Shown: positions 1 to 35,578 of the stretch, piece by piece
Layout: each line of letters begins with the position of its first letter
Position numbering within the stretch: the stretch's first letter is position 1
Position numbers and translations under genes: made by a program
Notes under the pieces: generated by a model
Database searches by the model: none
Told to the model about the DNA's origin: nothing
The model's input: the letters and a program-made list of their open reading frames with translations, nothing else
Virus record (IMG/VR): IMGVR_UViG_3300036770_000502
Location: 1-35,836 of that record
Reading direction: 5' to 3' (one strand)
DNA from: a virus
Length of the DNA: 35,836 nucleotides

Positions 1-1357
1 CAATCTTCGGAATGAACTTCTGATCGGGCACACCCCACCTAAACACACCAGTTTGAATCGTCCCAGACGACACAAGGTTCGTTGAATGTTTACGGTACGC
101 ACCCAAACCAGACACCGTGAACACAGGATCGTTATCGAACTCGTGGACATCAAGAACAGCACCCTGACCAGACACCATCAAATCCGATGCGTACGCAAAC
201 TGATTCGTGGAAATCTGCACCGACAAATCGATACGCCCCAACCCTGTGGATGCCGAGTCGTAGTTCGTCCAACCGAAATACACGTACGACCCGATACCAG
301 TGAACGCTTGAATAGATGAACCCGTCGAGATGAACGGTCCAATAACAAGGTTCCCGTTATCGTCCGATGTCGCGGCACGGAACCCAGTCTCCAAACCGAT
401 AAAAATGTACCCGAGATAACTGTCGATACTGACAACGATTTCGCCCTGCGGCAACTCGCCAGCAACAGTCGGAATATCAAGCGCCGTACCGTCAGCTTTG
501 ATTTGCGTTTTATAGATAAGCGTCTTGTTGCCCGAGTGACCAGCACAGTAGATGTGGTTTTGCCCACCAGCGAAACCAACCCAAGTGAAGTTCGTGTTTG
601 GATGCGTATAAAGGGCACCAGGGTTATTTGCTGAAGTACCTGGGGCGGTGGTGATATTCCAAATCTTGTGCTTATCAGCACCCTGACCAGTAGCCATCAA
701 ACGACCGCGAACATAATCCAATTTTCCAGCCTCAATACCAGTGATATACGCCGAAGCCGCTGAAGTACCAGCGTTCGTTTGATCTATGTCGCCGTTCGCA
801 TACGAAAAAAACACGTTGTAACCATCGGATGCAATCGAATAAATGTTTGAAGCGGCGGTGCTTGTCACCGTAGTGAAGGTGGACCAATCCGTTGTGTACT
901 TGACGTTCTGCCCATCCGTCCCATAGATACGGGTATCAGCAGTAGCCATATACAGATTCGTTCCAGATGTCGAATACGACTGCGTTGTATCAGACAGAAG
1001 CGACAACTGGCCTTTCGTCCAAACATCAATCCCCTTAGACGAAAAGAAACGATACGGTTCAGCGTCAGCAGTGTCCGCATATTTCTGTCCAGCCCCATAA
1101 TGCCAAGACGACTGCGACCTACGCCAAAGTCCCTGCGGATTGATAGCAGACTCCCCAGGTTCAGCTGACTGGTCAACCGAATCACGAACACGAGCATCAA
1201 ACTGGCGGGTGAACTGGTTCGATTTCGTATCAATCATGTACGGGCGACCATTGATCGCCACCGGAAAAATATATGGAACAAGCGGAGAATCACCGGTACC
1301 AGCAAAAAATCCTGGAGTGTCCTTATACGGAAACTCAAGTTCAGTAACGATTGCCAC
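1..1357 (-). CDS. Putative tail/fibre structural protein, 3' end cut off by window edge
   Basis: The frame is open from a GTG at 1357 down to base 1 (452 codons) with no stop. I found it by translating the minus strand directly. The protein is rich in Gly, Ser, Thr and aromatic residues. It shows repeating short strands such as NLYMATADTRIYGTDG, NHIYCAGHSGNK and YLGYIFIGLETGFR, which suggest a beta-propeller or other all-beta virion protein. TAG is the first codon in frame upstream, and GTG is the only start-type codon between it and the body of the gene. The start lies 2 nt after the stop of the preceding gene, so translation is probably coupled. The C-terminus is outside the window, unless the genome is circular, in which case the frame continues in phase into the fragment at 35836. 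The exact role is not known. Confidence 0.8.
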   Translation of the reverse strand, partial: MAIVTELEFPYKDTPGFFAGTGDSPLVPYIFPVAINGRPYMIDTKSNQFTRQFDARVRDSVDQSAEPGESAINPQGLWRRSQSSWHYGAGQKYADTADAEPYRFFSSKGIDVWTKGQLSLLSDTTQSYSTSGTNLYMATADTRIYGTDGQNVKYTTDWSTFTTVTSTAASNIYSIASDGYNVFFSYANGDIDQTNAGTSAASAYITGIEAGKLDYVRGRLMATGQGADKHKIWNITTAPGTSANNPGALYTHPNTNFTWVGFAGGQNHIYCAGHSGNKTLIYKTQIKADGTALDIPTVAGELPQGEIVVSIDSYLGYIFIGLETGFRAATSDDNGNLVIGPFISTGSSIQAFTGIGSYVYFGWTNYDSASTGLGRIDLSVQISTNQFAYASDLMVSGQGAVLDVHEFDNDPVFTVSGLGAYRKHSTNLVSSGTIQTGVFRWGVPDQKFIPKI

Positions 1358-21642: not shown

Positions 21643-21648
21643 GAGACC

Positions 21649-22680: not shown

Positions 22681-23329
22681 CGTCAATGCCTGACTCACGC
22701 TTGAGTTTGCCGATGACTTCCTTGTAAGTCTCAGGGTAGTCCCGTTCCATAGTCCGTGGGTACAAGTTGCCTTGCCACAGGCTGTGGAATAACTCGATGG
22801 TCTCTGTGTCGTAGTCAGCGAAAGCCAGTTTGGGGTCTGGGTCATCGCTGTCTAGGGTAAGTATTGAGACGTTATCGCCTGACTTGACCACGACAAAGCC
22901 GGGGGCAGCACAGGCTGTAAGCCGTCTGCCGTCAGGGAGATTAGTCCTGATGATTAGCCCTGACTGCTTCTTGATGTGGTAAGTCATAAGCATTGACTGT
23001 GGCTCTGAGACGATCTGGGCTAGTTCCTCATGGGTATCAAAGGTGTACAACTTGGTGATCTTGCCACCTGTGTAATCCCCACTGGTGAGGTCTTCGGGCT
23101 TACCACCTACTACTTGAGCGTCACCGTTCAGCATTTGCTGGTATTCCTCTTCAGTTGTCTTGGTCAGTGCGAACAAGTAACTGCCGAAATAGCCGTCTTT
23201 GGTGAACTGATCGTCAAGCATTGTGATAATGCTCTTAGCCTCAGCTGTACGCTCATCAAATATGGTCGTACCTGCTTCGGTCATTACTGCCTGTAGTTCT
23301 GCCATAAGCAGTTCGTCAGGGGTACTCAT
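22661..23329 (-). CDS. Acidic protein of the MoxR-vWA cluster, function unknown
   Basis: This is a 222-aa protein starting at ATG 23329 (MSTPDELLM). GGAGG lies 6 nt upstream, and the stop of the vWA gene overlaps as TGATG. It is acidic, with a Glu-rich C-terminus (GIDDEEEGE). It has a mixed alpha/beta pattern including KITKLYTFDTHEELAQIVSE and CAAPGFVVVKSGDNVSILTL. It is the third gene in a tightly coupled set after the AAA+ ATPase and vWA genes, so it may be the substrate or adaptor of that pair. I recognise no family. Confidence 0.8.
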   Translation of the reverse strand: MSTPDELLMAELQAVMTEAGTTIFDERTAEAKSIITMLDDQFTKDGYFGSYLFALTKTTEEEYQQMLNGDAQVVGGKPEDLTSGDYTGGKITKLYTFDTHEELAQIVSEPQSMLMTYHIKKQSGLIIRTNLPDGRRLTACAAPGFVVVKSGDNVSILTLDSDDPDPKLAFADYDTETIELFHSLWQGNLYPRTMERDYPETYKEVIGKLKRESGIDDEEEGE

Positions 23330-24648
23330 CACTTTCCTCCTTGTAGTTTGGTCATTTCCCTTATTGCTTGCTTCACATTACGGGCTGTGATAATCCCGTG
23401 CTTTCTTACGAGGTTACGGCACTGCTGTCTCAGGTTCTCGTTAGACCTGTCGCCTAAGCCAGTGACTTGCTGGTCGCTGACCCAGATAACGGGCTGAACG
23501 CTAGATGACCTAAGCGATACGCCGTACTTGAGTGCTGGTGCGTCACAGCCGTTACCCCCTGGAAACTCAGGGAGACGCCTAATCTGACGACCTCTACGGG
23601 CTACGACCCAAGCGTTAGGGTTGCTCTCATCGGGATAGTTACCCGTTGAGTAGCAGAGCACCGTAGCACCTGACGATGACTTCATAAGTGCCTTGAGGTC
23701 ATCTTCGGTAAGACTCATAGAGCCTGAGCAGTCAATGACTACGACAGCCCCAAGCGAACGGGTCTTACGGGTAAAGATACGACGCTCAGGGTCAGTCATA
23801 AGCCGACCGATATTGCGTGGATACTTACCCTCGTTGGTGTACATGATACGCCTACCCAACTTGCCAGTATGGGGGATATCCAACGGTGGCTTAGACACAA
23901 ACAACGGATACCACCCGTCGTTAGTGTCGTCAATCGCTGGCTTACCCTTACTGATCTGCTCGGAAAGGTGACGCTGTGCTTTGGTCTGCTTAGCCTCTTT
24001 GGCTTGAGACCTAAGGGCTTCAGCTACCTGCTCAGCCCTAGCGTCGATCAACTCAGTGAGCCAACGCCAGTGCTTCTTAGCGTTACGCCTACGCCAGTCG
24101 CTCTTGCTGTTGATATCCAGCAAATGACTCTGGTAGTAATCCACAGTACGGGTAACTGCTTCCTCTGTGGACTGTAAGTACTCACGCACTGACGGTGGAA
24201 CTGCTGACTTGAGTTGCTCGTAAGCCTGAGTGCCTACATAACGGGTAGCCTCAAGAAAGACTGCGCCGTTAGGCGTTGGCTCGTTGAGCAACCTAGCCAG
24301 AGTGGCTACAGAAACTGTGCCGTTAGTTGGGTCATCGCCGTAAGCCTCTTTGTAGAGGCTTGTGGCTACTACCTGACTGGCTACCTGAGTTGAGTGAATA
24401 CTCACACCCCAACGCTTAGCGTTACGCTTAGCCTCAGGAAGAGCAACTCGGGCAAGGCAAAGGGCATAACGCCTAAGCCTACGGCTAGTCTCGCCACCAC
24501 CTGACGGGGCAACTAAGCCGTGAACCTTAGTCCCGTGAGTAACACTCACAGTCGTAAGGTCTAAGGCTTCGCCCGTTTGGGTGTAGCGATTATGCGATAG
24601 AGACGGTCTATCACCGAGTACCTCAGGTACTACAGAGTGCTTAGCCAT
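23329..24648 (-). CDS. von Willebrand A domain protein, partner of the MoxR ATPase
   Basis: This is a 439-aa protein. The C-terminal third carries a vWA fold with the metal-ion site DCSGSMS (about 303-309) after a hydrophobic strand GAVVVI, then a strand PVIWVSDQQVTGLGD. The N-terminal 280 residues are helical and basic, as in CobT- or CoxE-like proteins that work with a MoxR AAA+ ATPase. The start overlaps the ATPase stop (TAATG). Known pairs of this type remodel or insert metal into target proteins; in phages their job is not settled. Leu-Arg steps encoded CTT-AGG are frequent here, unlike the virion genes. Confidence 0.85.
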   Translation of the reverse strand: MAKHSVVPEVLGDRPSLSHNRYTQTGEALDLTTVSVTHGTKVHGLVAPSGGGETSRRLRRYALCLARVALPEAKRNAKRWGVSIHSTQVASQVVATSLYKEAYGDDPTNGTVSVATLARLLNEPTPNGAVFLEATRYVGTQAYEQLKSAVPPSVREYLQSTEEAVTRTVDYYQSHLLDINSKSDWRRRNAKKHWRWLTELIDARAEQVAEALRSQAKEAKQTKAQRHLSEQISKGKPAIDDTNDGWYPLFVSKPPLDIPHTGKLGRRIMYTNEGKYPRNIGRLMTDPERRIFTRKTRSLGAVVVIDCSGSMSLTEDDLKALMKSSSGATVLCYSTGNYPDESNPNAWVVARRGRQIRRLPEFPGGNGCDAPALKYGVSLRSSSVQPVIWVSDQQVTGLGDRSNENLRQQCRNLVRKHGIITARNVKQAIREMTKLQGGK

Positions 24649-25379
24649 TAGCGACCCTCGACTTTGGCGATAGCCATTGCGTCTACTAGCTGCTCAGCGA
24701 TCTGAGGCAAAGCCACAAGAGCCGAACGCTGTATGTCGTTGCTTCGCTGATAGAGTCCTGCGAACTCTACGAAACTACGCAATGAGTAACGGTCATCACC
24801 GACTCGTGAAGTGTAAGCACGAGCCAACTCCCTGAGGTACTCAGGCAAAGCCATGATGGCGTCATCGTGAGGTTCGTCAATGCGAATACGAACAACGAGA
24901 CGGTCAAGCACAGCAGGTGCTAAGTCCTCAGGCTCACCGTTCATCGTAGCGACAACGCTGAAACCCTCAGAGGGCTTGACGATTTCGCCAGTCTCAGGAT
25001 GTTCCCAACTGCTTGAGTGAGTTGTATCAATGAGAGCCATAAGCCGTGACTCAACATCTGAGTTACAGCGATTGATCTCATCTACGACTAAGCGAGCACC
25101 CTCTCGCCAAGCCTTGATGCCAACACCCTCACGGAACTGCCAAGTCCCGTTAGCAGACTGACGATAGCCACCGATGAGGTCGCTGTCGGTCATCTCTTCA
25201 GTACAGATGAGACGGTAAGAGTTCTTACCTGCCAAGTGGTAGTTCAGACCGAAGTAAGTCTTACCCGTACCGGGCAAGCCATACATCAGCACTCTGCCAA
25301 GTCCGTTAGACAAAGCAAAGTCTGCTTGCTGCCAGCCACTAAGCGTGACTGGCTCTAGGTTGATATTGACGGCTTCCAT
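24648..25379 (-). CDS. MoxR/CobS-type AAA+ ATPase
   Basis: This is a 243-aa protein from ATG 25379 (MEAVNINLEP). AAAGG lies 8 nt upstream; the longer frame begins in the leader and is not needed. Walker A is GLPGTGKT (34-41), Walker B LVVDEINR (97-104), sensor 1 lies in VVATMNGEPEDLAPAVLDRL, and conserved Arg residues follow. These are the hallmarks of the MoxR clade, whose hexamers act with a vWA protein. The vWA gene follows with a one-base overlap. The pair probably works as an ATP-driven chaperone on a host or phage protein. Confidence 0.9.
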   Translation of the reverse strand: MEAVNINLEPVTLSGWQQADFALSNGLGRVLMYGLPGTGKTYFGLNYHLAGKNSYRLICTEEMTDSDLIGGYRQSANGTWQFREGVGIKAWREGARLVVDEINRCNSDVESRLMALIDTTHSSSWEHPETGEIVKPSEGFSVVATMNGEPEDLAPAVLDRLVVRIRIDEPHDDAIMALPEYLRELARAYTSRVGDDRYSLRSFVEFAGLYQRSNDIQRSALVALPQIAEQLVDAMAIAKVEGR

Positions 25380-25413
25380 GATTATGCCTTTCGTTAGTAG
25401 TTGATAATGGAAG

Positions 25414-25449
25414 TTACATACTGCGATAACTTCGGCTGTGCGTATGTAA
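25414..25449. repeat. Inverted repeat in the leader of the MoxR gene
   Basis: TTACATAC (25414-25421) and GTATGTAA (25442-25449) form a perfect 8-bp inverted repeat with a 20-nt interval, 35 nt upstream of the ATPase start. It could be an operator for a dimeric regulator or a leader hairpin. Confidence 0.5.
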
Positions 25450-25483
25450 GACACAGCATTACTCGGGCTTATCGCTACCCGTC

Positions 25484-25517
25484 TCTTCTAAGGGAGAAAG
25501 GGGAATACCTTAGAAGA
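25484..25517. repeat. Inverted repeat at the end of the 60-aa gene
   Basis: TCTTCTAAGG (25484-25493) and CCTTAGAAGA (25508-25517) are perfectly complementary over 10 bp. The second arm includes the stop codon of the 60-aa gene. No T tract follows on the minus strand, so an RNA processing or attenuation site is more likely than a simple terminator. Confidence 0.5.
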
Positions 25518-25692
25518 AGATCTTGTGAGACTCAGGTGAGTAGGACTCAAGGCAGTCTTGCCAATGCCAAATAGCCCTAGACACATACTCAAGTTCGTTA
25601 GGAAACTGAATACGGTTATTGTGCTTCTTGGCGATAGAGTACCGAAGATACCGTACTGCCAAGTGGTCTAATGCTCTAATAAGAGCGTTCAT
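25510..25692 (-). CDS. Small protein, function unknown
   Basis: This is a 60-aa protein starting MNALIRALDHLAVRYLRYSI at ATG 25692, with GAGAAAGG placed before it; the longer frame runs back through the leader hairpin and is unlikely. It is helical and contains aromatic and charged residues (RAIWHWQDCLESYSPESHK). It lies between a 231-aa early protein and the ATPase. It shares its leader design with the upstream gene, so the two may be regulated together. Confidence 0.7.
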   Translation of the reverse strand: MNALIRALDHLAVRYLRYSIAKKHNNRIQFPNELEYVSRAIWHWQDCLESYSPESHKIFF

Positions 25693-25903
25693 AAGGTCGC
25701 CTTTCTCTAGATCGGGGGTACTTCCCCCGAGGTCGCCGACCACGCTAGCCGACCCGACGACCGATCGCAAACACCGAGCCGACACCACAACACTCGCGCG
25801 CGCGATTAGTTTAGATAAGGCTTAGATAACACTAACGCTAACTAGACGCGCGCTCGCAGGCGCGCATTATCTAGTAGCGGTAGCGGTAGAGGTAGCGGTA
25901 GTG
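25693..25903 (-). promoter_or_regulatory. Leader with shared 13-mer, GC hairpin and operator-like repeats
   Basis: This is 211 nt without a gene. In transcription order it holds a (GGTAGC)-type repeat (25875-25901, in plus reading), GCGCGC inverted repeats (25848-25865) and two direct repeats TTAGATAA (25811-25818 and 25822-25829, 11 bp apart). It then holds the 13-mer CGACCACGCTAGC (25737-25749), a perfect 7-bp hairpin (25712-25730) and the Shine-Dalgarno. The last three elements recur in the same order before the gene at 26599. Confidence 0.55.
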
Positions 25904-26599
25904 CTACTTGTCTTCGCTCTTGACGGCTCGACGCAGCTCTTCGATGAGCTTGGCTTCGACATCATCGCCATACTCACCAGCAATCAACTGAACCGAGAAC
26001 GCTGTAGCCATTGCGTCGTACAGCTTCTGCTCACCTGGCTCAGCCTCAAAGTGTGGCTTGATGTCAGTGAGTATCTCGTTGGTGACCAGGTTCCGGGTGA
26101 TGGTGTACATGGCAGCCGAAGTAATCATGGAAGTCATAACGATTTCCTGCTTGTCGTCAGCCTCTGACGGCCTTACTTCTGTCTGCTTTGATACCCATCC
26201 ACCGACACGGAGGATCATGCCAACTGGCTTCTTCTCAAGCAACTCAATCATTAGCTGGGGGCTGAGCAGGCATTCGTATGCCTCGCCCTGAACTACTGAA
26301 CTAATGGTAATCATGCCACCAGTAGTGGAGTTGGGGTTAGGCTCATTGAGATTGATGGCAGTCGGGTGGTTCTTGCGACACTCAAGAGCCTCATCAATAG
26401 TGGTAGCTGTGACTTCGACAATGAAGACACATGCTTCAGAGTCAGGGTTACCCATGTTGTCCCACATACCAGCCTCAATAGACATGAAGTCTTCTTTGAT
26501 CTTGAGTGTGGACTCGTCATAGATTTCTTTCTCAGCATCAGCGATGATCCCCTCTAGTTCGGGGTGGACATCGCTCAAGTTGTAGCTATCCTCTGACAT
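25904..26599 (-). CDS. Early phage protein, function unknown
   Basis: This is a 231-aa acidic protein from ATG 26599 (MSEDSYNLSDVHPELEGIIA) with GAAAGG upstream; the longer frame runs through the leader and is rejected. It has alternating strands such as ACVFIVEVTATTIDEALECR and GMILRVGGWVSKQTEVRPSE, and an acidic C-terminus. It contains no catalytic motif that I recognise. Its leader shares a 13-mer and a hairpin with the next gene. It may be a cofactor of the downstream MoxR-vWA cluster or an early takeover protein. Confidence 0.8.
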   Translation of the reverse strand: MSEDSYNLSDVHPELEGIIADAEKEIYDESTLKIKEDFMSIEAGMWDNMGNPDSEACVFIVEVTATTIDEALECRKNHPTAINLNEPNPNSTTGGMITISSVVQGEAYECLLSPQLMIELLEKKPVGMILRVGGWVSKQTEVRPSEADDKQEIVMTSMITSAAMYTITRNLVTNEILTDIKPHFEAEPGEQKLYDAMATAFSVQLIAGEYGDDVEAKLIEELRRAVKSEDK

Positions 26600-26726
26600 T
26601 GTTATCCTTTCGTTGGTGATCCCCGGCTGGGGAACGGCGACCACGCTAGCAGCGCCCCGTCGGGGTTGCGACACACGCGCGTGGAAATACTTTCATCTAG
26701 ATTCTTGTGTAGGTGTACTCGCAGCC
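26600..26726 (-). promoter_or_regulatory. Leader with 13-mer and GC hairpin
   Basis: The leader carries CGACCACGCTAGC (26638-26650) followed on the minus strand by the hairpin CCCC-GGCT-GGGG (26621-26632) and then AACGAAAGG. The order and near-identical spacing match the leader at 25712-25749. No clear -35/-10 pair is visible to me. Confidence 0.5.
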
Positions 26727-26746
26727 AGCGGTAGCGGTAGCGGTAG
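26727..26746. repeat. Short AGCGGT hexanucleotide repeat
   Basis: AGCGGTAGCGGTAGCGGTAG is a run of just over three hexamer units directly after the stop of the 64-aa gene. A similar run (25875-25901) follows the stop of the 231-aa gene. Both are intergenic. Confidence 0.6.
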
Positions 26747-26748
26747 GC

Positions 26749-26943
26749 CTACTTCTTCATCTCCTTGTACCGGAACAACGCATACTCCTTTGCCCTCTCA
26801 ACTCTCTCAGGCTCAAGTGCGTCAGCCACACCCATCGCCATAGACGTAAAGGAATCCTTGATGTGTTCGGATGCACACATCGCAGCAAGGAGTAGTTCCG
26901 TGAGAACATTCTCAGCTTTGTCTTTGTCACTTTCTATCAGCAT
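26749..26943 (-). CDS. Small helical protein, function unknown
   Basis: This is a 64-aa protein (MLIESDKDKAENVLTELLLA ... ALEPERVERAKEYALFRYKE). It appears entirely alpha-helical and amphipathic. The start is ATG 26943 with AAAGGTAAG nearby, and it overlaps the end of the preceding gene by 17 nt. No family is recognised. Confidence 0.65.
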   Translation of the reverse strand: MLIESDKDKAENVLTELLLAAMCASEHIKDSFTSMAMGVADALEPERVERAKEYALFRYKEMKK

Positions 26944-27076
26944 CTTTCTTACCTTTCGTAATCATTTCTTGGGGTTCTGAGTGTAACCGTCTGTTGCTAC
27001 AGATCGGCGCACCATTTACTTTGACGTTAGTTGTAATTGAGTTCTTGCACTTCGGGCAAGTCCATCGCTGGCTCAT
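26927..27076 (-). CDS. Small zinc-ribbon-like protein
   Basis: This is a 49-aa protein starting MSQRWTCPKCKNSITTNVKV. The pair CPKC and a later Cys (APICSN) suggest a zinc-binding knuckle. The Shine-Dalgarno GGGAGG sits 5 nt before ATG 27076, which decides this start over the longer frame. It overlaps the preceding gene by 50 nt. Similar short RW-CPxC proteins are familiar beside early genes in actinobacterial phages; the role is unknown. Confidence 0.65.
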   Translation of the reverse strand: MSQRWTCPKCKNSITTNVKVNGAPICSNRRLHSEPQEMITKGKKDADRK

Positions 27077-27413
27077 AGTTCCCTCCCTGGCACTTACACT
27101 TTCCAAACTGTGTGTATGTATAACCACCGAACTGCGTGTCTTCAACTTGAAGCCATCCGAGATTGCACTTGCCACAGTACTCACTGTTCGTACCTCCCCT
27201 TGATCCCCTAATCAGGTTCTTTACTCGGGCCAATGTGGGGAACGCTGGCTCTGCTTGGATCTTCTCAAGTACTTTCTTGGCATCCTCATCGGACAGCGAC
27301 ACGAGCAGTTCTTCCTGACGCCACGCATTCTTCACGGTGTTACGTGCGATGTTGGTGGTGGGGAAGTACCCACAGATCCTGTCGACAAACAGGTCAATGC
27401 GCTCCGGGGTCAC
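27027..27413 (-). CDS. Putative replisome organiser / helicase-loader-like protein with Cys cluster
   Basis: This is a 128-aa protein. The N-terminus (MTPERIDLFVDRICGYFPTT, then VKNAWRQEELLVSLSDEDAK) resembles the helical domain of phage replisome organisers or helicase loaders. The C-terminal part has YCGKCNLGW and GKCKC, a likely zinc-binding site. GTG start in a GTGA overlap with the gene upstream. If right, it would direct the host helicase to phage DNA, which would suit a genome with no polymerase or helicase of its own. The assignment is tentative. Confidence 0.6.
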   Translation of the reverse strand: MTPERIDLFVDRICGYFPTTNIARNTVKNAWRQEELLVSLSDEDAKKVLEKIQAEPAFPTLARVKNLIRGSRGGTNSEYCGKCNLGWLQVEDTQFGGYTYTQFGKCKCQGGNYEPAMDLPEVQELNYN

Positions 27414-27619
27414 AGCTCTAGCCCCTGAGACATGGCGATCTGAATGCGAGACAGCATGCTGCGGAGACGTGCGTTCTCGTCCTCTGCCACGGCAAGCTGA
27501 TGACGCAGCTCACGCAGCTCACTGAGCGTGTGCCTCAGCGCTGTGTCGATGTCGTCAAACTTCTCAGCCCAGTACTCGTCTACGTACTGCTTGTAGTCCT
27601 CTTCGTATCGGTTAGTCAT
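27410..27619 (-). CDS. Small coiled-coil protein
   Basis: This is a 69-aa protein whose central part LRHTLSELRELRHQLAVAED continues as a heptad-repeat coiled coil up to about residue 60. It overlaps its upstream neighbour as ATGA and its downstream neighbour as GTGA. It could be a small regulator or adaptor; the function is unknown. Confidence 0.7.
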   Translation of the reverse strand: MTNRYEEDYKQYVDEYWAEKFDDIDTALRHTLSELRELRHQLAVAEDENARLRSMLSRIQIAMSQGLEL

Positions 27620-27747
27620 TTCTTCATCCTCCTGTTTATTTCTTTTTCGAACTTATCGATTAGTTGCACCAATCGTTCTTCGTCTGCCTTGCCAGGATAT
27701 ACCTTTCGCAAGAATCTCACAAGGTCATGTAGTTCATCGAGCGTCAT
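27616..27747 (-). CDS. Small helical protein after WhiB
   Basis: This is a 43-aa protein from ATG 27747 (MTLDELHDLVRFLRKVYPGK) ending in basic residues NRRMKK. It overlaps the whiB stop by 14 nt. The longer frame continues antiparallel to nothing useful and would overlap whiB deeply, so the short form is preferred. It is fully helical; the function is unknown. Confidence 0.6.
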   Translation of the reverse strand: MTLDELHDLVRFLRKVYPGKADEERLVQLIDKFEKEINRRMKK

Positions 27748-28018
27748 GTGCGCCCCACGAGTGGATACCCAAGTGCATGAGACGTTCGTTTGATGTCTTG
27801 CCTCCCCATATTCCGTACTCCATTCTGTTCTCGAGCGCAAAGTCTAAGCAGTCTTTCTTCACTTTGCACTTTGAACAGAGAGCTTTTGCTTTTGCAATCT
27901 TGTCACCGGAGTATCCACGTTCAAAGAAGAACACGTCACCGTTGCCTTTGCAATTGGCTTTGTTCTGCCAGTCAAACTTCTGACTACGCAGAGACCAAGC
28001 ATCCAGTAGTTCTGACAT
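27734..28018 (-). CDS. whiB: WhiB-family iron-sulphur transcription regulator
   Basis: This is a 94-aa protein from ATG 28018 (MSELLDAWSL), with GGGAGGG upstream. Four cysteines, C23, C48, C51 and C57 (CSKCKVKKDC), match the WhiB iron-sulphur cluster. The turn YGIWGGKTSNER (68-79) is the family signature used to contact the sigma factor. WhiB proteins occur only in actinobacteria and their phages, so this is the best single indicator of the host. The phage copy could redirect or block host sigma-dependent transcription. Confidence 0.93.
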   Translation of the reverse strand: MSELLDAWSLRSQKFDWQNKANCKGNGDVFFFERGYSGDKIAKAKALCSKCKVKKDCLDFALENRMEYGIWGGKTSNERLMHLGIHSWGAHDAR

Positions 28019-28044
28019 TGCCTTATCCCTCCCGTTGTTGTTGT

Positions 28045-28572
28045 TTAGTTCGCTACCCATGGTGACCATCCTGCTACGTCAAACAGTAATTTGCCTGCGC
28101 GTAGGTTGGTCAGTGCGTCCAGTAATGGCTCTTGTGTGCATATGCCCATCTCCTTGCAGATCAGTCCATGATAGTTGGGATGATCCTGCTTCCAGTGCAC
28201 TCCGTTGATCTGGAGTAGACCGGAGTCGGAGCGATGGTTCCACTCAGACACACGGATGATGTTGCAGTTGGCGTCGACCACATCCCCACCCTTACGGTTC
28301 GGGCAGCCACCCGATTCCCTGAGGATGATCTGTGCCAGCTTTTTGTGGGTTCGCTTGGGCCAGCCTGCTTCGGTTGCCAGCCGGGTCAGCCACGATACGT
28401 CTCCGTGCTTGAAGGTTACGGGGACGAGCAACGGACGCTCCGCCCTGAGATGGGCGAGCTTGTCGTGTGGCTTGTCAGTAACTCCGCTCGGTGCACCCAC
28501 CGCTTGAGCGTGTCCCATTCCTACTGCCAGCGCTACCAGGCAAACGGCAAATAGCCGTACTGTCTTTCGCAT
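28045..28572 (-). CDS. Secreted lysozyme-like/transglycosylase muralytic enzyme
   Basis: This is a 175-aa protein with a signal peptide (MRKTVRLFAVCLVALAVGMG, cut near AQA-VGAPS). The C-terminal domain has the lysozyme-like features IILRESGG (catalytic Glu), SDSGLLQINGVHW and NLRAGKLLFDVAGWSPWV, as in soluble transglycosylases and resuscitation-promoting factors. It would cleave peptidoglycan outside the membrane. It lies among early genes next to whiB, away from the endolysin-holin cluster. It may act from the outside late in infection or in the wall during infection. Confidence 0.88.
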   Translation of the reverse strand: MRKTVRLFAVCLVALAVGMGHAQAVGAPSGVTDKPHDKLAHLRAERPLLVPVTFKHGDVSWLTRLATEAGWPKRTHKKLAQIILRESGGCPNRKGGDVVDANCNIIRVSEWNHRSDSGLLQINGVHWKQDHPNYHGLICKEMGICTQEPLLDALTNLRAGKLLFDVAGWSPWVAN

Positions 28573-28703
28573 TGTGTGCCTTTCAGTCTAGTCGAAACTG
28601 CTTGCCTTTATTTTACAGGGCTATCGCCCCAGCCAAACCCAACAGCAGGAATGACTGGGGAGAACCACGCCACTGTGACCCAGTGACTGCCCTTGTGTGG
28701 TCC
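28573..28703 (-). promoter_or_regulatory. Intergenic region, possible promoter for the muralytic enzyme gene
   Basis: These 131 nt hold no gene. On the minus strand TAAAAT (about 28612-28617) could be a -10, about 45 nt before ATG 28572, with only weak -35 candidates (TTTGGC). A small GGGC-type palindrome occupies the spacer. GAAAGG precedes the start codon. A promoter is possible but weakly supported. Confidence 0.35.
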
Positions 28704-29147
28704 TTACGACAGCAGAGAGACTATCTCTGCAAACTCTGTGAGTGTCATGAGCACGATACCTTCTGAAGTACCGTCCGGCATAGCCACCATCACAAATGGA
28801 CGAACGTCACCCAGCGCCTTCGCCGCATCGCTCTGTGCTTTCGCGTCTCTGAATCGTGTATAAATCGGACCAACCTGCGCGCCCGCTTTGATTTCGGTAC
28901 GAAAAATGCCACCCCAGTTTTCTTCGTGACGGGTAAGATGACCACCCAGCCCAAGTTTCTTGCGGGCACGACGTGCTTTGGAATCGCCCTTAGTCCGGTT
29001 ACGTTTACCCCGAGCCGCAGGGTCGCCACAGTTTCGAACCCTACGCCGACCGTCACGACCGGGCTTCCCAAGGGTTCCGAATAGTGGGCAGTCTTTGTTG
29101 CTGCACTTGTCTTTGTTTCCATCGCATTCACCTTTCCTAGTGTCCAT
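28704..29147 (-). CDS. Zinc-binding nuclease/resolvase-like protein (tentative)
   Basis: This is a 147-aa protein. The N-terminal Cys cluster (GECDGNKDKCSNKDCPLFG) probably binds zinc, followed by a basic patch (GKRNRTKGDSKARRARKKLG). The later HEENWGGIFRTEIKAGAQVG and FVMVAMPDGTSEG have the E...ExK spacing of a small PD-(D/E)xK-like nuclease. Such proteins next to recombination genes in actinobacterial phages are plausible Holliday-junction or branch nucleases. The start overlaps the stop of the small repressor-like gene by one base. Motifs are suggestive only. Confidence 0.7.
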   Translation of the reverse strand: MDTRKGECDGNKDKCSNKDCPLFGTLGKPGRDGRRRVRNCGDPAARGKRNRTKGDSKARRARKKLGLGGHLTRHEENWGGIFRTEIKAGAQVGPIYTRFRDAKAQSDAAKALGDVRPFVMVAMPDGTSEGIVLMTLTEFAEIVSLLS

Positions 29148-29293
29148 TACTTAGATGCTTTCAATCCGACTTGGATAAGAACTCTGATTGTCTCAGACCT
29201 GTTGAGGCTAATCCTTTCTGACACCCGAGCCACCTTTTCAAGCAGCTCGGGTTCCAGACGGACAGCGATCAAGGTCTTTGGCTTGCGCTTCAC
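29147..29293 (-). CDS. Ribbon-helix-helix (CopG/Arc-type) DNA-binding protein
   Basis: This 48-aa gene reads MKRKPKTLIAVRLEPELLEK at its start, then ISLNRSETIRVLIQVGLKAS. The N-terminal strand (LIAVRL) followed by two helices with NRSETIR is the signature of ribbon-helix-helix repressors. The start is GTG, overlapping the annealing-protein stop as GTGA, and the stop overlaps the next ATG as TAATG. Both overlaps and the motif make it convincing despite its size. It probably represses early transcription. Confidence 0.88.
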   Translation of the reverse strand: MKRKPKTLIAVRLEPELLEKVARVSERISLNRSETIRVLIQVGLKASK

Positions 29294-29964
29294 TTCAGTG
29301 ACGTGATGAGAGTGGAGGCTTCACCCTTGGTGATCGACTCCAGTGAATCCACATCACGGCCCAGCGTTGCCTTGGCGTAGCCAGCCTGCTCGTCCTTGGA
29401 GCGCACACCCTGCTGTGCAAGCAAGGCACGGATCATGCCGATCTGCTTGACAGAAGCTGCCTCACCCGGGTTCTTGATAGTTGGCGCAGGCTTGGTGACC
29501 TCCTTTGCACCGAACGAATCGGCAAGGTTGCCCATGACTTCTGCCATCTCATCGGGCGTTGGCTCCGAGTCGAACGATTGCTGTGGGCGTGGAGCTGGCT
29601 TTGGGTAGCTGGTCGTGTGACGCTGTACCTTCTCCATCTCTTCACGTGACGGGCGCTTGGCTGGGTCAGATCCGGCTAGCCCAAGGTTGGCCAATGCGCG
29701 TCCCACGGCCGAGGATTCACAGTTCTCGAGGTGACTGGTGCGGTTCACCATGCCCTCTCCACGTGTCTCTTCTGCCCATCCGGTAGCCACCAACTTGTCG
29801 TCGATGTACAACTCGGCACGAAACACACAACGTGTGTCGGTGTAGTGGACGAGATCGGTCACGACCTTGGTGCGTGGCACCACATGGTCTCCGCTGTACT
29901 CGCTGAGCCAGCGGTCCAGTCTAGCTGCGACTGTCTCGTAGTTGTCAAGGTTGAATGATGCCAT
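29290..29964 (-). CDS. Single-strand annealing recombinase-like protein
   Basis: This is a 224-aa protein. Residues about 60-115 (GWAEETRGEGMVNRTSHLEN, CESSAVGRALANLGLAG) match the core pattern of Erf/Sak/Redbeta-type phage annealing proteins. The C-terminal part is Pro-rich linker plus a small helical domain (VKQIGMIRALLAQQGVRSKD), common in such proteins for binding DNA. The gene lies just downstream of the YqaJ exonuclease, the usual partnership in which the exonuclease makes 3' tails and the annealer pairs them. Confidence 0.85.
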   Translation of the reverse strand: MASFNLDNYETVAARLDRWLSEYSGDHVVPRTKVVTDLVHYTDTRCVFRAELYIDDKLVATGWAEETRGEGMVNRTSHLENCESSAVGRALANLGLAGSDPAKRPSREEMEKVQRHTTSYPKPAPRPQQSFDSEPTPDEMAEVMGNLADSFGAKEVTKPAPTIKNPGEAASVKQIGMIRALLAQQGVRSKDEQAGYAKATLGRDVDSLESITKGEASTLITSLK

Positions 29965-29969
29965 TGCTG

Positions 29970-30905
29970 TTACCTCCGTTTGATTTTCATTTGACGATAT
30001 TCGGTGATCTTGCGGAACTTGCTGACCAGCGCTGGATGTGCTTCACCCAATGCCTTTGTGTCCAGAGTGTCCCTCTGCACTGTCTTCCACGTGACTACCT
30101 CTGTGCCATCGTATAACGCTTTCTCTGCGTTTTGCAACACCATGCCAATCTTTGCCTGCAGCTCGCCCTCTTGCTTCTCGAGTGCGCTGATCTGCGCCTT
30201 GACATCTGCGAGTGCGGACACAAGCGCATAGTCATCGGCATTGATCTCAACGGTGATTGGTTCTGACTTCTTGTACATGTCCTGCACATTCGTCAGGGAC
30301 ATGATGACATTCTCTGGGATGTCCAAGTTGTCGATGGATGCCAGGAACTTGGAGACCTCAACGATGTGCGCATTGGTCTCGTCACTGGACACGTGCTGCG
30401 TGTGCCTGTACATGTCGAGCGAGCTGTCAAAGATGATCCACTCGATCCTGTCTGCGCCAGCACAGATGGCCTGGTGGATTCCCTGCCAGTACCAATGGCG
30501 TGGCAGTTCGCCATCCCAGCGCTTGCGCGAGGTCTTCACCTCGTACGGGATTCCGTCCTTGTCAATGGCATCCAGCGTGGCGATCATGCGACACGTGCCG
30601 TCCTCATAGCAGTACATCTGCTCTGGGGTCACAAGGTCGATGCCCTCGCTTTCGGCAGCCCACTTGATGAGCATTGGCTCCATGCGGTTGCCTCGCTCCA
30701 TGTCGCGCGTGGACGGCTGTGGAACTGGTGGTGTCTGCGAGAGCAGCTCCTGTGCCAGGTCTGCGGACGAGGTGTACGGGTGCTCGTTGTAGATGGCACC
30801 TGCCACCGATGCGGAGATCCGCCTGCGTCCCTCTGCGTCTGCCCATCGCACACGGAGCCATTCTTCGCTCCCGTGCTCGGGCTTGTCAATCGTGTATCTG
30901 AACAT
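29970..30905 (-). CDS. YqaJ/RecB-like exonuclease
   Basis: This is a 311-aa protein. The visible YqaJ motifs are RRISASVAGAIY, ERGNRMEPMLIKWAAE, the catalytic CRMIATLDAIDKDGIPYEVK (D..ExK) and HWYWQGIHQA (Q motif). The C-terminal third is a coiled coil (LADVKAQISALEKQEGELQA). It would degrade one strand from DNA ends. The start has AAGGAGGGAC just before ATG. It forms a recombination module with the annealing protein downstream. Confidence 0.9.
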   Translation of the reverse strand: MFRYTIDKPEHGSEEWLRVRWADAEGRRRISASVAGAIYNEHPYTSSADLAQELLSQTPPVPQPSTRDMERGNRMEPMLIKWAAESEGIDLVTPEQMYCYEDGTCRMIATLDAIDKDGIPYEVKTSRKRWDGELPRHWYWQGIHQAICAGADRIEWIIFDSSLDMYRHTQHVSSDETNAHIVEVSKFLASIDNLDIPENVIMSLTNVQDMYKKSEPITVEINADDYALVSALADVKAQISALEKQEGELQAKIGMVLQNAEKALYDGTEVVTWKTVQRDTLDTKALGEAHPALVSKFRKITEYRQMKIKRR

Positions 30906-30941
30906 GTCCCTCCTTGTTGTTGTGATACGACTGTATCACGG

Positions 30942-31277
30942 TCACATCGGGAATGCAACCACCTTGATAGAACGCACCATGTCCACCGGAATGTGCATCG
31001 GATGGATGCCCTCGTCCTTGCACAGGGACTGCCACACAGTCACGTGCTTGTCCTTTGACCCTGGCTCGCCCACAGGTATGAGGAATCCAACCGTGTCGAC
31101 GATGGTCTCCCCATCATCCACGTATTCGTCCAGCTCCTGCCAGCCACCATCGCCCATGTGCGCATCCGCCCACTGGACGAGGACTATTGACCTACTCGTC
31201 GTCTTCTGGTTTGTCGCCACAGTCTGGATGAGACCCAACTGGTCGGACAGGGAGGCATGCACATGTGTCTCGTGCAT
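30942..31277 (-). CDS. Early phage protein, function unknown
   Basis: This is a 111-aa beta-rich protein (SIVLVQWADAHMGDGGWQEL, ETIVDTVGFLIPVG, MVRSIKVVAFPM). ATG 31277 lies close to the stop of the metallophosphoesterase gene; a GTG three bases upstream is an alternative start. It sits between metallophosphoesterase and exonuclease, so a role in DNA metabolism is possible but not shown. Confidence 0.7.
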   Translation of the reverse strand: MHETHVHASLSDQLGLIQTVATNQKTTSRSIVLVQWADAHMGDGGWQELDEYVDDGETIVDTVGFLIPVGEPGSKDKHVTVWQSLCKDEGIHPMHIPVDMVRSIKVVAFPM

Positions 31278-31283
31278 CACGCA

Positions 31284-32300
31284 TCAGTCCAGCCAGACGG
31301 TGTACTCGGCCGTCACACGTCCCTTGTCGGGGTCGACAAAGTGGAGGCGCTGGCTCGGCTTGCCCACAGCAGCCACGAACACACGTGCGTATTCATTGTG
31401 TGACTCGGGTGACCCGGACACAAACACACGCCCACCGTTGGCCATGGTCAGGCTCATCGGGGTGTGGAAGTGGCCCATGTATACGTCGTGGAAATCCTCG
31501 ACCACTCCGGTTGCCCATGCGTTGCACTTGCGCAAGATGCCAAATGCTGGCACATTGCCACCGTAAGAGTTGATCTCGTCGCCATGCACAAGGAGTGCAC
31601 GATAGGAACCGATGTTTACTATTTGATACCAGTCTCCGGACATCTGCCATGTCACGTTGTTCAGGTGGGCACAGCGGTCGCTGGCAATCTTGTATGCCAT
31701 GCGGTCGATGTTGTCGCCGTTGGGCATGTCGCCCTTGCGACCAAGACGCCCGTGGTTTCCGAACTCGCACACAACGTGCACGTTTTCAAAATGGCTCGCC
31801 ATTTGGTGGACAGTGTTGGCGATAATGCGAACAACCTCAAAGAGTTGCTCAAACAGATGGGCTTCCACCTCGTATGCTTGGCCCGGAAATATTCCGATGC
31901 CCTCGACCATATCTCCGCCCAGCATGATGACCACATCCTTGACTGGGTGGTGTTGGCGCTGGATGTTGGTCAGCTCAATGACCTTCTTGGTCATCAGGTC
32001 AATCCGCTCAGCAAGCGTGGCAAGGCCGTAGGACACGGTTCTCTTGCCAGCTTGCCAGTCGGTCAAGTGAACAAGGGCAACCTCTGACTTACCCTTGCGC
32101 TTGTCGATCTGTAACTTGGCTGGCTTCAGCTGTGGTGTTGACTTGAGTGCATCTGCTGCTGCTTGATAGACGGCTGCGACGATTGCCTCGGACCTGTTTT
32201 TTGCCTTGGCCTCTGCCTGTTGTGCTCGCTTAAGGGCAGCCTTCAGTTCAAGAATGGTGTCATCGTTCTCGATCTCTACCAACCTCTTGAACTTTGTCAT
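31284..32300 (-). CDS. Calcineurin-like metallophosphoesterase
   Basis: This is a 338-aa protein with the metal-binding motifs in order: LTDWQAG, VVIMLGGDMVEG, VCEFGNHGRLG, LLVHGDEIN and VYMGHFHTPM. The N-terminal 80 residues form a coiled coil rich in Lys, Ala and Glu. Enzymes of this family hydrolyse phosphodiester bonds in nucleotides or DNA. In phages they are often grouped with recombination nucleases, as here. The ATG overlaps the stop of the preceding gene as ATGA. Confidence 0.88.
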   Translation of the reverse strand: MTKFKRLVEIENDDTILELKAALKRAQQAEAKAKNRSEAIVAAVYQAAADALKSTPQLKPAKLQIDKRKGKSEVALVHLTDWQAGKRTVSYGLATLAERIDLMTKKVIELTNIQRQHHPVKDVVIMLGGDMVEGIGIFPGQAYEVEAHLFEQLFEVVRIIANTVHQMASHFENVHVVCEFGNHGRLGRKGDMPNGDNIDRMAYKIASDRCAHLNNVTWQMSGDWYQIVNIGSYRALLVHGDEINSYGGNVPAFGILRKCNAWATGVVEDFHDVYMGHFHTPMSLTMANGGRVFVSGSPESHNEYARVFVAAVGKPSQRLHFVDPDKGRVTAEYTVWLD

Positions 32301-32506
32301 TGGATTACTCGCATTCTTTGTATTGAGATAACTGCCACATCTATGCCAAGCTCTTTGAGTGCCCGTGCAATCGCAGCAGCTTTTACATCTGGGTTATTAA
32401 CTGCGTCCAAAAAATCCTTGTAAGATTGTTCGTCCAGTCCGGCTTTGATTCTTTCCTGGACCCCAAGTTTTTCGGAGCTTTTTAGAACATCTTTAAACTT
32501 GCTCAT
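32297..32506 (-). CDS. Small HTH-like protein, first gene of the early operon
   Basis: This is a 69-aa protein from ATG 32506 (MSKFKDVLKSSEKLGVQERI). GGAGG lies 4 nt upstream, which decides the start; the longer frame passes through the leader hairpin. Residues about 36-65 (AAAIARALKELGIDVAVISI, QRMR) look like a helix-turn-helix that ends in a basic recognition segment. It stands directly behind the promoter, so it may regulate the operon. Confidence 0.75.
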   Translation of the reverse strand: MSKFKDVLKSSEKLGVQERIKAGLDEQSYKDFLDAVNNPDVKAAAIARALKELGIDVAVISIQRMRVIQ

Positions 32507-32521
32507 TGTTCCTCCGTTCAG

Positions 32522-32562
32522 TGACCCAGGAGGGAAGAAAGGCGTAACACCCTCCCGGGTCA
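32522..32562 (-). promoter_or_regulatory. 13-bp hairpin at the predicted 5' end of the early mRNA
   Basis: The arms 32522-32534 and 32550-32562 pair over 13 bp with one G-U and a 15-nt loop. The predicted start of transcription (about 32562) falls on the first base of the stem. No T tract follows on either strand, so it is not a terminator. It may protect the mRNA or be an operator. Confidence 0.65.
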
Positions 32563-32568
32563 TAGATA

Positions 32569-32597
32569 AATATACACACATGAAGTAAATGTTGCAA
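32569..32597 (-). promoter_or_regulatory. Early operon promoter
   Basis: On the minus strand TTGCAA (32597-32592), a 17-nt spacer and TATATT (32574-32569) make a good sigma70-like promoter. It drives the block from 32506 down to 22036. The palindromic TTGCAA is also the -35 of the divergent plus-strand promoter. Confidence 0.75.
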
Positions 32598-32620
32598 GCA
32601 TCATTCCACATGTGTACACT
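32592..32620 (+). promoter_or_regulatory. Divergent promoter for structured RNA, copy 2
   Basis: TTGCAA (32592-32597), 17 nt, TACACT (32615-32620) read rightward. The -35 element is shared, base for base, with the early promoter on the other strand, so only one of them can be occupied at a time. The expected start is about 32627. Confidence 0.65.
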
Positions 32621-32626
32621 TGCACA

Positions 32627-32775
32627 ACAACTTCAGAAAGCGCATGGCCGTACCACCTTTGCAAGTGGCGGGGCAAGAACACCAGGGAACTGGGGTAGAT
32701 CTCCCATTGGCTTGGGAGAGGCAATCGACTAGGGAGTCGGCGTGAGGCAAACCGACGGGGGGACGTGGTTAGAAG
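32627..32775 (+). ncRNA. Structured non-coding RNA, copy 2
   Basis: The core at 32642-32719 parallels copy 1. It has hairpin 1 CCAC/GTGG (32653-32656 with 32665-32668, loop with TTGCA), hairpin 2 CCAG-GGAA-CTGG (32682-32693, GNRA loop), the hexamer GGTAGA (32694-32699), and hairpin 3, perfect 7 bp TCTCCCA/TGGGAGA (32700-32706 with 32713-32719). Relative to copy 1 a 2-nt insertion lies in the linker between hairpins 1 and 2, which would break any shared reading frame. Downstream, CGACT/AGTCG and GTCGG/CCGAC are alternative, mutually exclusive stems. The 3' end is estimated. Confidence 0.7.
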
Positions 32776-33817: not shown

Positions 33818-33979
33818 TTATTCCTTCTCAGAGAGACTTAGTGCTGAATGCAGTATCAATGTTACACCAGTGATCCACAGGGCTGATCTGAGCGTTGGCC
33901 CAGAGAGAGTAATGAGCACGAGTCCGGTCCCCGCATACGTCCACGAGTTCTCATTCAGGAAAGAAAGGAATCGTTTCAT
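33818..33979 (-). CDS. Small membrane protein (53 aa), holin-like
   Basis: This minus-strand gene reads MKRFLSFLNENSWTYAGTGL, followed by LVLITLSG and LWITGVTLILHSALSLSEKE. Two hydrophobic segments are visible. It overlaps the PA14-gene stop as ATGA, and its own TAA precedes the next ATG by 1 nt. It joins two other small membrane proteins in the lysis cluster. It may be a holin or an antiholin. Confidence 0.75.
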   Translation of the reverse strand: MKRFLSFLNENSWTYAGTGLVLITLSGPTLRSALWITGVTLILHSALSLSEKE

Positions 33980-35355
33980 CGTCTACTCATCCTAGTTCCA
34001 GCCGCTGCAAGGGCCATTCCAGCGGTCACGGCAATGAGGGTTCTGCGCGTTCCAACAGGGACGCTTGATCCAATGGGCACGTAGTCGTCTAGACCCTCAC
34101 CAAAGATATTGATGGTGTCCTCAAAGGTTTTACGGACTTCGGTGGGTGCTTCTTGGACTGCTTCAACGAGCGCATCAATCTGGGCATCGCTTAGTTCGTC
34201 TACCGCAAGGGCCTCAAACACTGCCTCGGCTTCCTCGGTGCTAACTGTGGCAAGCACTTCTGGGTTGAGGGCCACAGCGACCGCCTGCGCTTGAGACACG
34301 CTAGAAGGCTCTATAACGATTTGGGGGGTAGTTACCGTGGTTTGGGGTGCAACGCTCGTCTGAGGGGCTGTGGACGCGACTGGTGGGATTGTGGTGGCAG
34401 GGGCTAGGGTGGTGGCAGGACTAGTAATTGGAGGAGTAGGCAATGTGGTTGGAACTTCTAGGACTGTTGTTTGGGGTGGTGGTGCTTCCGTTGTTGATAC
34501 TGGGGGCACAGTCGTTGAGGGCTCAGTCGTGGTTGATGGCGGTGGAGGTACCCATGCTTGTGTGGTTGACGTGGCGACTAGCGACGTACTCGTAGATGAA
34601 CTCGTTGTTGTAGCTGGCTGAGTAGTAGTCGTACTGCTCGTGGTGGTGGTACTGGTACTAGATGTAGTGGTGGTACTCGGCTCAGTAGTGGTAGATGAGC
34701 TACTGGTTGTTGGAGGTTCGGTCGTCGTCGTCGACTCTTGCGTGGTGGAGGTTTCCTGAAGCGTCGTAGTGGTAGGCGGGTCCGTGACAGGGACAGTCTC
34801 TAACGGCGCAGTAGTAGTAGTTGTCGTCGTCGGTGTGGATGCTGTTGTAAATGCCCATTCTGGAACGATCTCCCAATATGCGTCGTCAATCTTCCAAGCA
34901 AGCATATAGCAGGTACCGCCACCAGCCTCAAAGAACCAGCCATCCAACGGGTATTCTCCTGGCATAACGGAAAGCGTTATGGTCTGCGACCACGAGCAAC
35001 CTTTCAGGTTCCAAGTACCGAACTCGTAGCCACCGATATTGACTGTGCCCCCGTCATCGGCTGCGACCATAAACTCAATCGTGTCATGCTCGGGCAGTGT
35101 GATGAACCCTGTGTAGTGGACCATGAAGTAGTCCCAACCGCAGTCTTGGAATGGTTCTCCGTTGAAGTTGCGGTTGATGTTGTTCTCGACCTCGGACCCG
35201 CAGGTGGGGTACAGGTTGTCTGAGCGTTCCGGTGGTATCTGGTCAATCAGGTAGCCGACAGCGTTCAACCCGTATTCGGGTTCAGCTTGTGCTTCTCTGG
35301 GAAGTAAAGCGAAGAAAACCGCTGGAAGGAAAACGATCCAACGGCTTTTGAACAC
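33976..35355 (-). CDS. PA14-domain surface/adhesion protein with Thr-rich stalk and C-terminal membrane anchor
   Basis: This is a 459-aa protein from GTG 35355 (FKSRWIVFLPAVFFALLPRE), whose first 24 residues form a signal peptide; the upstream extension is not needed. Residues about 27-165 form a PA14-like beta domain (FMVAADDGGTVNIGGYEFGT). About 180 residues of Thr/Ser/Pro stalk follow. A conserved-looking helical domain (EEAEAVFEALAVDELSDAQI, then FGEGLDDYVPIGSSVPVG) precedes a hydrophobic anchor near the C-terminus. PA14 domains bind sugars. The protein could be shown on the infected host or the virion. The GTG lies just after the stop of the preceding gene. Confidence 0.82.
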   Translation of the reverse strand: MFKSRWIVFLPAVFFALLPREAQAEPEYGLNAVGYLIDQIPPERSDNLYPTCGSEVENNINRNFNGEPFQDCGWDYFMVHYTGFITLPEHDTIEFMVAADDGGTVNIGGYEFGTWNLKGCSWSQTITLSVMPGEYPLDGWFFEAGGGTCYMLAWKIDDAYWEIVPEWAFTTASTPTTTTTTTAPLETVPVTDPPTTTTLQETSTTQESTTTTEPPTTSSSSTTTEPSTTTTSSTSTTTTSSTTTTQPATTTSSSTSTSLVATSTTQAWVPPPPSTTTEPSTTVPPVSTTEAPPPQTTVLEVPTTLPTPPITSPATTLAPATTIPPVASTAPQTSVAPQTTVTTPQIVIEPSSVSQAQAVAVALNPEVLATVSTEEAEAVFEALAVDELSDAQIDALVEAVQEAPTEVRKTFEDTINIFGEGLDDYVPIGSSVPVGTRRTLIAVTAGMALAAAGTRMSRR

Positions 35356-35356
35356 G

Positions 35357-35578
35357 CTATGAGATGTTGTTGAGTTCCGCCTGATGCACGTTGATCGCGG
35401 CTTCAAGGGTGGCAAGTGCTTGGTCTGCTGATGCGACACCAGCCTCATCGTTCAACTGGGTGCAGGTTTGCTTGTTCAGTTCATGCTGCCATGCTTCGGC
35501 AGCAAACTGGGCGATGCGCTGGTTCAGGATGTTTTGCTTCTGTTCAGCGGTGAGTAGGGAGGTGTAGTCGATTGCCAT
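35357..35578 (-). CDS. Small helical protein
   Basis: This is a 73-aa protein (MAIDYTSLLTAEQKQNILNQ) with an all-helical pattern and Ala/Gln-rich segments (RIAQFAAEAWQHELNKQTCT). The start has GGAG placed 7 nt upstream. It lies just after a fibre-like gene. Similar small proteins follow phage fibre genes and may be chaperones or attached subunits; the role is unknown. Confidence 0.75.
   Translation of the reverse strand: MAIDYTSLLTAEQKQNILNQRIAQFAAEAWQHELNKQTCTQLNDEAGVASADQALATLEAAINVHQAELNNIS

Follow-up and report, generated by a model that had tools for sequence, protein, structure and literature searches.

GOLLD was first described from lake DNA, the phi29 pRNA is a small phage RNA that is structured and has a promoter of its own, ColE1 RNA II is a structured, promoter-driven primer RNA with a G-run, and the put RNAs of HK022 are a pair of related RNA elements close to promoters of the early region. 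The locus studied here lies in a viral contig of 35,836 bases, hereafter the window. We conclude that its stretch 32592-32765 (+) is almost certainly a promoter followed by an independent noncoding RNA gene, paralogous to a gene at 21615-21857 (+), both belonging to a phage family outside Rfam in which a 5' domain A is joined to a 3' domain B or C, domain C occurring also with another 5' domain, D.

As in the put system, two related RNA elements lie near phage early-region promoters; however, put RNAs are part of the transcripts of the genes on which they act, whereas ours are on the opposite strand. The phi29 pRNA is matched in small size, structure, own promoter and, for copy 1, proximity to a packaging gene, but our RNAs have no Rfam match, stand beside unrelated terminases and have a second copy far off, and the terminase of the window belongs to phrog_38 and not to the phi29-type packaging ATPases. 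ColE1 RNA II is similar in structure, promoter and G-run; in the family, however, the 5' domains are modular, copy 2 is not followed by an origin region and the sequence does not match. ROOL is likewise a phage-borne structured RNA with pseudoknots, but its structure differs. GOLLD has a conserved 3' region and a less conserved 5' region (PMC12286853); our family shares this pattern and is also phage-encoded, highly structured and of unknown function. Nevertheless, GOLLD often exceeds 800 nt and is found near tRNA islands, whereas RNAs of the family measure ~170-240 nt, sit at operon borders and, in one clade, come as a pair of paralogues in each genome. Neither an Rfam model of GOLLD or ROOL, nor their size of several hundred nucleotides, nor, in the window, a tRNA island was found, and ARAGORN detected no tRNA or tmRNA there. 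The locus does show an own promoter at a fixed distance and a covarying structure on the transcribed strand, as expected of a noncoding RNA gene.

The two RNA copies in the window

All detected phage genes of the window are on the minus strand and both RNAs are on the plus strand (Table 1). The earlier note had placed at 32592-32775 a structured RNA with three hairpins, the second copy of an element, the two copies bracketing 22036-32506. They do bracket this region, and an RNA is present, although 32592-32620 is its promoter and the conserved body spans only ~32640-32765. Besides the three stems there is a pseudoknot, UUGC of loop L2 with GCAA, which had escaped notice. The changes described between the copies are confirmed, i.e., CAGG-GAAA-CCTG to CCAG-GGAA-CTGG in stem 2 (P3) and CCTCTGAC/GTCAGGGG to TCTCCCA/TGGGAGA in stem 3 (P4), with GGTAGA conserved in both (21740-21745 and 32694-32699) and a linker differing by 2 nt. 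The GNRA loops said to be kept are reduced to that of stem 2, the only loop that is GNRA in both window copies.

Table 1. Coordinates of the RNA genes and of neighboring features in the window
Feature	Position	Strand	Details
Terminase large subunit	19408-21366	-	phrog_38, E 6e-65; copy 1 upstream on the opposite strand
Copy 1 promoter	21615-21642	+	TTGCAA-16-TATAGT
RNA copy 1	21686-21857	+	5' domain A and 3' domain C; predicted start ~21649; covariation in A2
Copy 1 domain A	21695-21772	+	P1 21695-21697/21720-21722; P2 21701-21704/21713-21716; P3 21728-21739; P4 21746-21767
Copy 1 pseudoknot	21707-21710/21769-21772	+	UUGC with GCAG
Copy 1 P5 and domain C	21775-21855	+	P6 21796-21827; P7 21829-21842; lone pair C21824-G21846; G6 21850-21855
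Early module between the RNAs	22036-32611	-	VWA, MoxR-type AAA ATPase, WhiB, annealing-protein-like, YqaJ/RecE exonuclease, phrog_284 exonuclease
Divergent early-operon promoter	32569-32597	-	TTGCAA-17-TATATT; palindromic -35 TTGCAA in common with the copy 2 promoter
Copy 2 promoter	32592-32620	+	-35 TTGCAA 32592-32597; 17-nt spacer; -10 TACACT 32615-32620
RNA copy 2	32640-32765	+	5' domain A and 3' domain B; predicted start ~32627; alignment A3
Copy 2 P1 and P2	32647-32674	+	P1 32647-32649/32672-32674; GUA/CGG internal loop; P2 32653-32656/32665-32668; L2 32657-32664
Copy 2 pseudoknot	32659-32724	+	L2 UUGC 32659-32662 with GCAA 32721-32724
Copy 2 P3	32682-32693	+	CCAG-GGAA-CUGG, GNRA loop
Copy 2 P4	32700-32719	+	UCUCCCA/UGGGAGA
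Copy 2 domain B	32730-32762	+	stem GUCGG 32736-32740/CCGAC 32752-32756; then G6 32757-32762

A covariance model of the 5' domain (R1) matches the window only at the two copies, 21690-21775 (+) with E 4.4e-26 and 32642-32727 (+) with E 1.7e-22, both values being rough owing to a shortened calibration. A 24-base pattern taken from the first hairpin likewise has exactly two matches in the window, where shuffles expect none. The stretch common to both copies is the first ~85 nt, 59% identical; the alignment breaks down after the third hairpin, so only the 5' domain is common, and the 3' halves represent distinct domains. The similarity of copy 2 is 86% to copy 2 of relative L001 and 59% to copy 1 of its own window; each genome position forms its own paralogue lineage. 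The description as a second copy thus holds for domain A, which recurs with extensive compensatory changes, and not for the 3' domains.

Folded as a single sequence, copy 2 is not significant on the plus strand (z -1.1), and the z of -2.35 on the minus strand is misleading because most of it is due to the promoter dyad. The proof of structure therefore rests on the comparison of relatives.

The neighbors of copy 2, ~11 kb from copy 1, are lysis and exonuclease genes, and downstream it reads directly into the 3' end of a holin-like gene. Both copies do stand upstream of an operon, as claimed, but with RNA and genes on opposite strands they are divergent from it and not leaders. The region between them had been called a replication module; its annotation does not bear this out, with no polymerase, helicase, primase or initiator detected. 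Two inverted repeats were seen past copy 1. One, CCCCCC-ATAC-GGGGGG (21963-21979), lies ~110 nt beyond the G-run and could pair with it or be a terminator; the other, CCCAGTAG...CTACTGGG (~21992-22017), lies directly beyond the end of the early operon in a terminator-like position.

Promoters, fold and domains across relatives

The layout of the copy 2 promoter recurs in relatives with equal spacing and position (TTGCAA-17-TATAGT in L001, TTGCAA-17-TATCTT in L305), TTGCAA being the commonest -35 box in the family. Its use as the -35 box of the divergent early promoter as well is restricted to the window, L001 and L005, and is therefore clade-specific. In 70 nonredundant upstream regions, we counted 49 TTGNNN-16..18-TANNNT pairs compared with 4.2 in shuffles. 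As many as 46 of the 70 regions have the pair 24 to 32 or 44 to 56 nt before P1 compared with 1.2 in shuffles, a contrast somewhat favorable since the two distance bands were picked after the data had been seen; the 49 versus 4.2 does not depend on them. A generic promoter score averaged over relatives is weak, and the promoter claim is thus carried by the positional test. Promoters at a fixed distance argue that the RNA copies are independent genes. No conserved intrinsic terminator was found in the family, so that the 3' ends given here are provisional. In several relatives, among them L091 and L093, and in the window (21615-21645), a ACACCATGGTG dyad is located between the promoter of the RNA and the beginning of the terminase operon; it is a possible operator for an early/late switch.

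The fold was assessed in two alignments, A2 (29 copy-1-type RNAs, aligned by MAFFT with no structure information) and A4 (the 5' domain of both copy types together, 35 sequences). An all-against-all scan of column pairs in A2, made without structural input, returned as covarying pairs only those of helices P1 to P5, one pseudoknot pair (23-90) and one lone pair (151-178). When the whole structure is counted, 96.9% of the cells of A2 are paired compared with 79.0% after shuffling, double-change cells number 206 compared with 65, and covariation reaches 0.522 compared with 0.182, while no slid version exceeds 0.09. In A4, the corresponding values are 96.1% compared with 70.5% for pairing and 0.740 compared with 0.236 for covariation. 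The sequences are related, so that these counts are not independent events, and the shuffles preserve column make-up only; hence the weight of the slid controls, the strand test and the independent pair types. P1 and P2 are paired in 35 of 35 sequences of A4 through many compensatory pair types, column pair 46-53 in P3 takes GC, AU, CG or UA, and in P4 all six counted pairs are changed on both sides. RNAalifold recovered the same nested helices.

The pseudoknot joins UUGC or UCGC in the P2 loop to the bases directly after P4, and the two sides of its variable position always change together across relatives, UUGC going with GCA(A/G) and UCGC with GCG(A/C/G). In domain C, compared over a set including sequences with an unrelated 5' domain, the variable pairs of P6 and P7 covary and a lone pair from the P6 bulge to the joining strand appears as C-G, G-C or U-A. 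The stem of domain B, GUCGG/CCGAC in the window, has compensatory variants in L001, L005 and L022, the forms seen among relatives being GUCGG/CCGAC, ACUGG/CCGGU and AUCGG/CCGAU. A run of five or six G ends both 3' domains, with a few B-type exceptions such as GGGTG.

Among variable pairs, G-U exceeds A-C by 84 to 5 in A2 and by 58 to 5 in A4, which indicates selection on the plus-strand RNA and not on a minus-strand mRNA. That the element is a chance similarity or a feature at the DNA or protein level agrees with the unexceptional single-sequence folding, but is refuted by the covariation, the strand asymmetry, the positioned promoters and the many small indels within the element; we give this a practically negligible probability. 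Altogether, pairing and covariation above shuffled and slid controls, the G-U bias, the positioned promoters, the shuffling of domains and the paralogues kept in position argue for RNA genes, as does the constant orientation of the copies opposite the neighboring terminase or exonuclease gene wherever that gene was found.

The conserved RNA body is ~125 to 250 nt long. Domain C mostly follows domain A, and in at least 18 loci it follows an unrelated, conserved 5' domain D with the core GACCGGAAACGGGG or GGCCGGAAACGGGGACCGACCCC. Domain D with the core CCGGAAACGGGG (alignment A6) was seen in L117, L127, L128, L129, L134, L165, L168, L192, L197, L217, L232, L280 and L281; it is probably another new structured domain. 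Domain B occurs with domain A and, in L296 and L322, with a variant P1/P2 domain. Such a swap of large RNA domains at a fixed genome position is rare. An insertion of ~50 nt within P4 of copy-1-type RNAs, beginning CCCTGCAACCAAG... or CCCTGCAATCAAG..., is conserved in a subgroup (L185, L204, L209, L173 and L207).

Distribution and genome position

A DNA pattern search gave three further viral contigs, and the neighboring exonuclease and terminase used as queries gave 160 loci (80 each). R1 matches at 30 of the 80 exonuclease loci and 41 of the 80 terminase loci, in 71 of 71 cases on the strand opposite the gene. Motif scans found the 3' domain of copy 1 (C) in at least 120 viral contigs and that of copy 2 (B) in 50, again on the opposite strand in 98 of 98 loci with a terminase in reach and 40 of 40 with an exonuclease in reach. 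A leader or riboswitch would lie on the same strand, 5' of its gene; all 71 model matches and all 138 pattern matches are opposite the neighboring gene. The true exceptions in gene arrangement are L296 533(-) and L322 3562(-), where the RNA is on the same strand as an adjoining annealing-protein gene. Several of the remaining loci have at the same place an unrelated large terminase (PHROG 979 and 2), dissimilar to that of the window; the family persists beside it and is thus no accident tied to a single gene. In some relatives whose terminases are closely similar, no RNA copy is detectable.

R1 matches 31 of 48 long records at least once, in a few of them weakly, and 7 have two strong matches, the window being the eighth genome with both copies. 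The pairs lie ~10.8 to 11.2 kb apart, directly or with the record read as circular, and the pair at the early-module borders that the earlier note proposed to seek in other phages is strongly supported, being present in seven of them. Relatives lacking one copy, which the same note would have counted against the pair if gene order were unaffected, do exist, an objection that holds in part, as many carry only the terminase-side copy.

The RNA family is present in well over a hundred phages, mostly from lakes. At the gathering score, Rfam 15 gave no match for the whole window, both copies or 16 relatives including domain D, and in a permissive search with both copies the best weak match, in copy 1, reached 16.5 bits of the 41.8 needed. 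Five representatives compared by blastn with 50,697 named phages had no real match, three matches to Thermus phages (E 0.9) being due to chance. R1 found nothing convincing in 396 Actinomycetota genomes, where two weak matches of ~27 bits are regarded as chance, and nothing in the Streptomyces phages Manuel and Immanuel3, which are distant terminase relatives. A motif scan of genome contigs gave three matches, of which the one inspected (L328) is inside a coding gene, and R1 has no match in the genomes of L328 and L329. No description of the RNA family was found in the literature; it is apparently undescribed and absent from Rfam.

WhiB is used to mark freshwater actinophages (PMC6802176, PMC10202952), and the WhiB genes of the window and its relatives indirectly suggest actinobacterial hosts. 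This study adds an apparently undescribed, widespread RNA family to presumed phages of actinobacteria that abound in fresh water. Cultures exist of two 'Ca. Planktophila' phages (PMC10202952), which, should they encode the RNA, would make its function directly testable; the structure is precise enough for the design of mutants and compensatory mutants.

Possible functions

Evolution has carefully kept the shape of the RNA, which must therefore matter to the phages. We propose a phage-borne, early-expressed, modular family of trans-acting RNA genes, a reading to which, taken as a whole, we give an even chance; for the trans-acting, protein-binding mechanism itself, we put the chances at even or just short of it. 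Host RNA polymerase would transcribe both, copy 2 jointly with the early operon, copy 1 from the early/late boundary. Without being translated, the RNAs would work in trans by binding a protein of the host or of the phage, e.g., of the transcription, translation or RNA-decay machinery, or a defense factor, serving as a regulator or decoy whose partner could be set by the swappable domains. More tentatively, a rather doubtful extension is that phages exchange 5' domains for recognition, which are pseudoknotted, and 3' domains acting as effectors so as to retarget host machinery, the paralogues controlling the early and late operons. Nevertheless, the fixed position at the head of operons could point to a role in cis, the conserved terminal G-run is unexplained by protein binding, and the predicted gene has no conserved intrinsic terminator.

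This G-run, together with an own promoter, the missing terminator and an early module with recombination proteins and no recognized polymerase, helicase, primase or initiator, would suit a replication-origin or primer RNA that, like ColE1 RNA II, maintains an open R-loop by means of its G-run and serves as primer for host-type DNA synthesis. We consider this unlikely: copy 2 reads into the 3' end of the holin-like gene and leaves no noncoding origin region, swaps of whole 5' domains are unexpected for a primer, neither RNA site has a GC-skew switch (the skew being uninformative for the origin), and the early module may contain an undetected helicase loader. No enrichment of G-run targets was seen elsewhere in the genome. 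The position of the RNAs opposite neighboring operons, and the -35 box of copy 2 that doubles as that of the early promoter, are consistent with a cis-antisense RNA or a transcription-interference element damping convergent or divergent operons. A conserved fold is not required for pairing of this kind, yet one is kept, with strand-specific G-U pairs; moreover, copy 2 hardly reaches mRNA before the 3' end of the holin-like gene, and domains swap independently of the neighboring genes, which makes such a role quite improbable.

By analogy to phi29 pRNA, the RNA could take part in packaging or mark a packaging site, in line with the location of the copy 1 type, which stands upstream of the terminase gene wherever that gene was found (41 of 41 model matches, 98 of 98 pattern matches), and upstream of an unrelated terminase too. 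However, copy 2 is ~11 kb away beside lysis and exonuclease genes, some close terminase relatives are without a detectable copy, and the same RNA domain, with no Rfam match, accompanies unrelated terminases, so that we regard this as very unlikely. Least probable of these by far would be a scaffold self-assembling into an RNA-only particle, an analogy with GOLLD and ROOL drawn from the phage-borne state, the wealth of pseudoknots and GNRA loops and the conserved 3' and variable 5' domains as in GOLLD (PMC12286853); the short length, the lack of a tRNA island in the window and of any Rfam match all speak against it. A self-cleaving ribozyme, a tracr or omega RNA and a Y-RNA were also considered and have no supporting feature beyond resemblance. 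Among the functions offered in the earlier note, a regulator or decoy thus stays the most likely, a replication RNA is possible and a cis-antisense role is weakened by the strand test.

Besides the RNAs, a 439-amino-acid protein with a DxSGS (VWA-type) motif (phrog_33218) is encoded beside a MoxR-type AAA_5 ATPase (23329-25454, minus strand) in the early module, forming a MoxR/VWA pair in a phage. The WhiB-type regulator, a marker of actinobacterial phages, is encoded at 27734-28069 (minus strand). Short AGCGGT/AGAGGT tandem repeats occupy two intergenic sites of the early module, 25876-25912 and 26727-26763. Finally, a 490-amino-acid protein (33976-35448, minus strand) has a long Thr/Ser/Pro-rich stalk and repeats and looks like a surface or tail-fiber protein.
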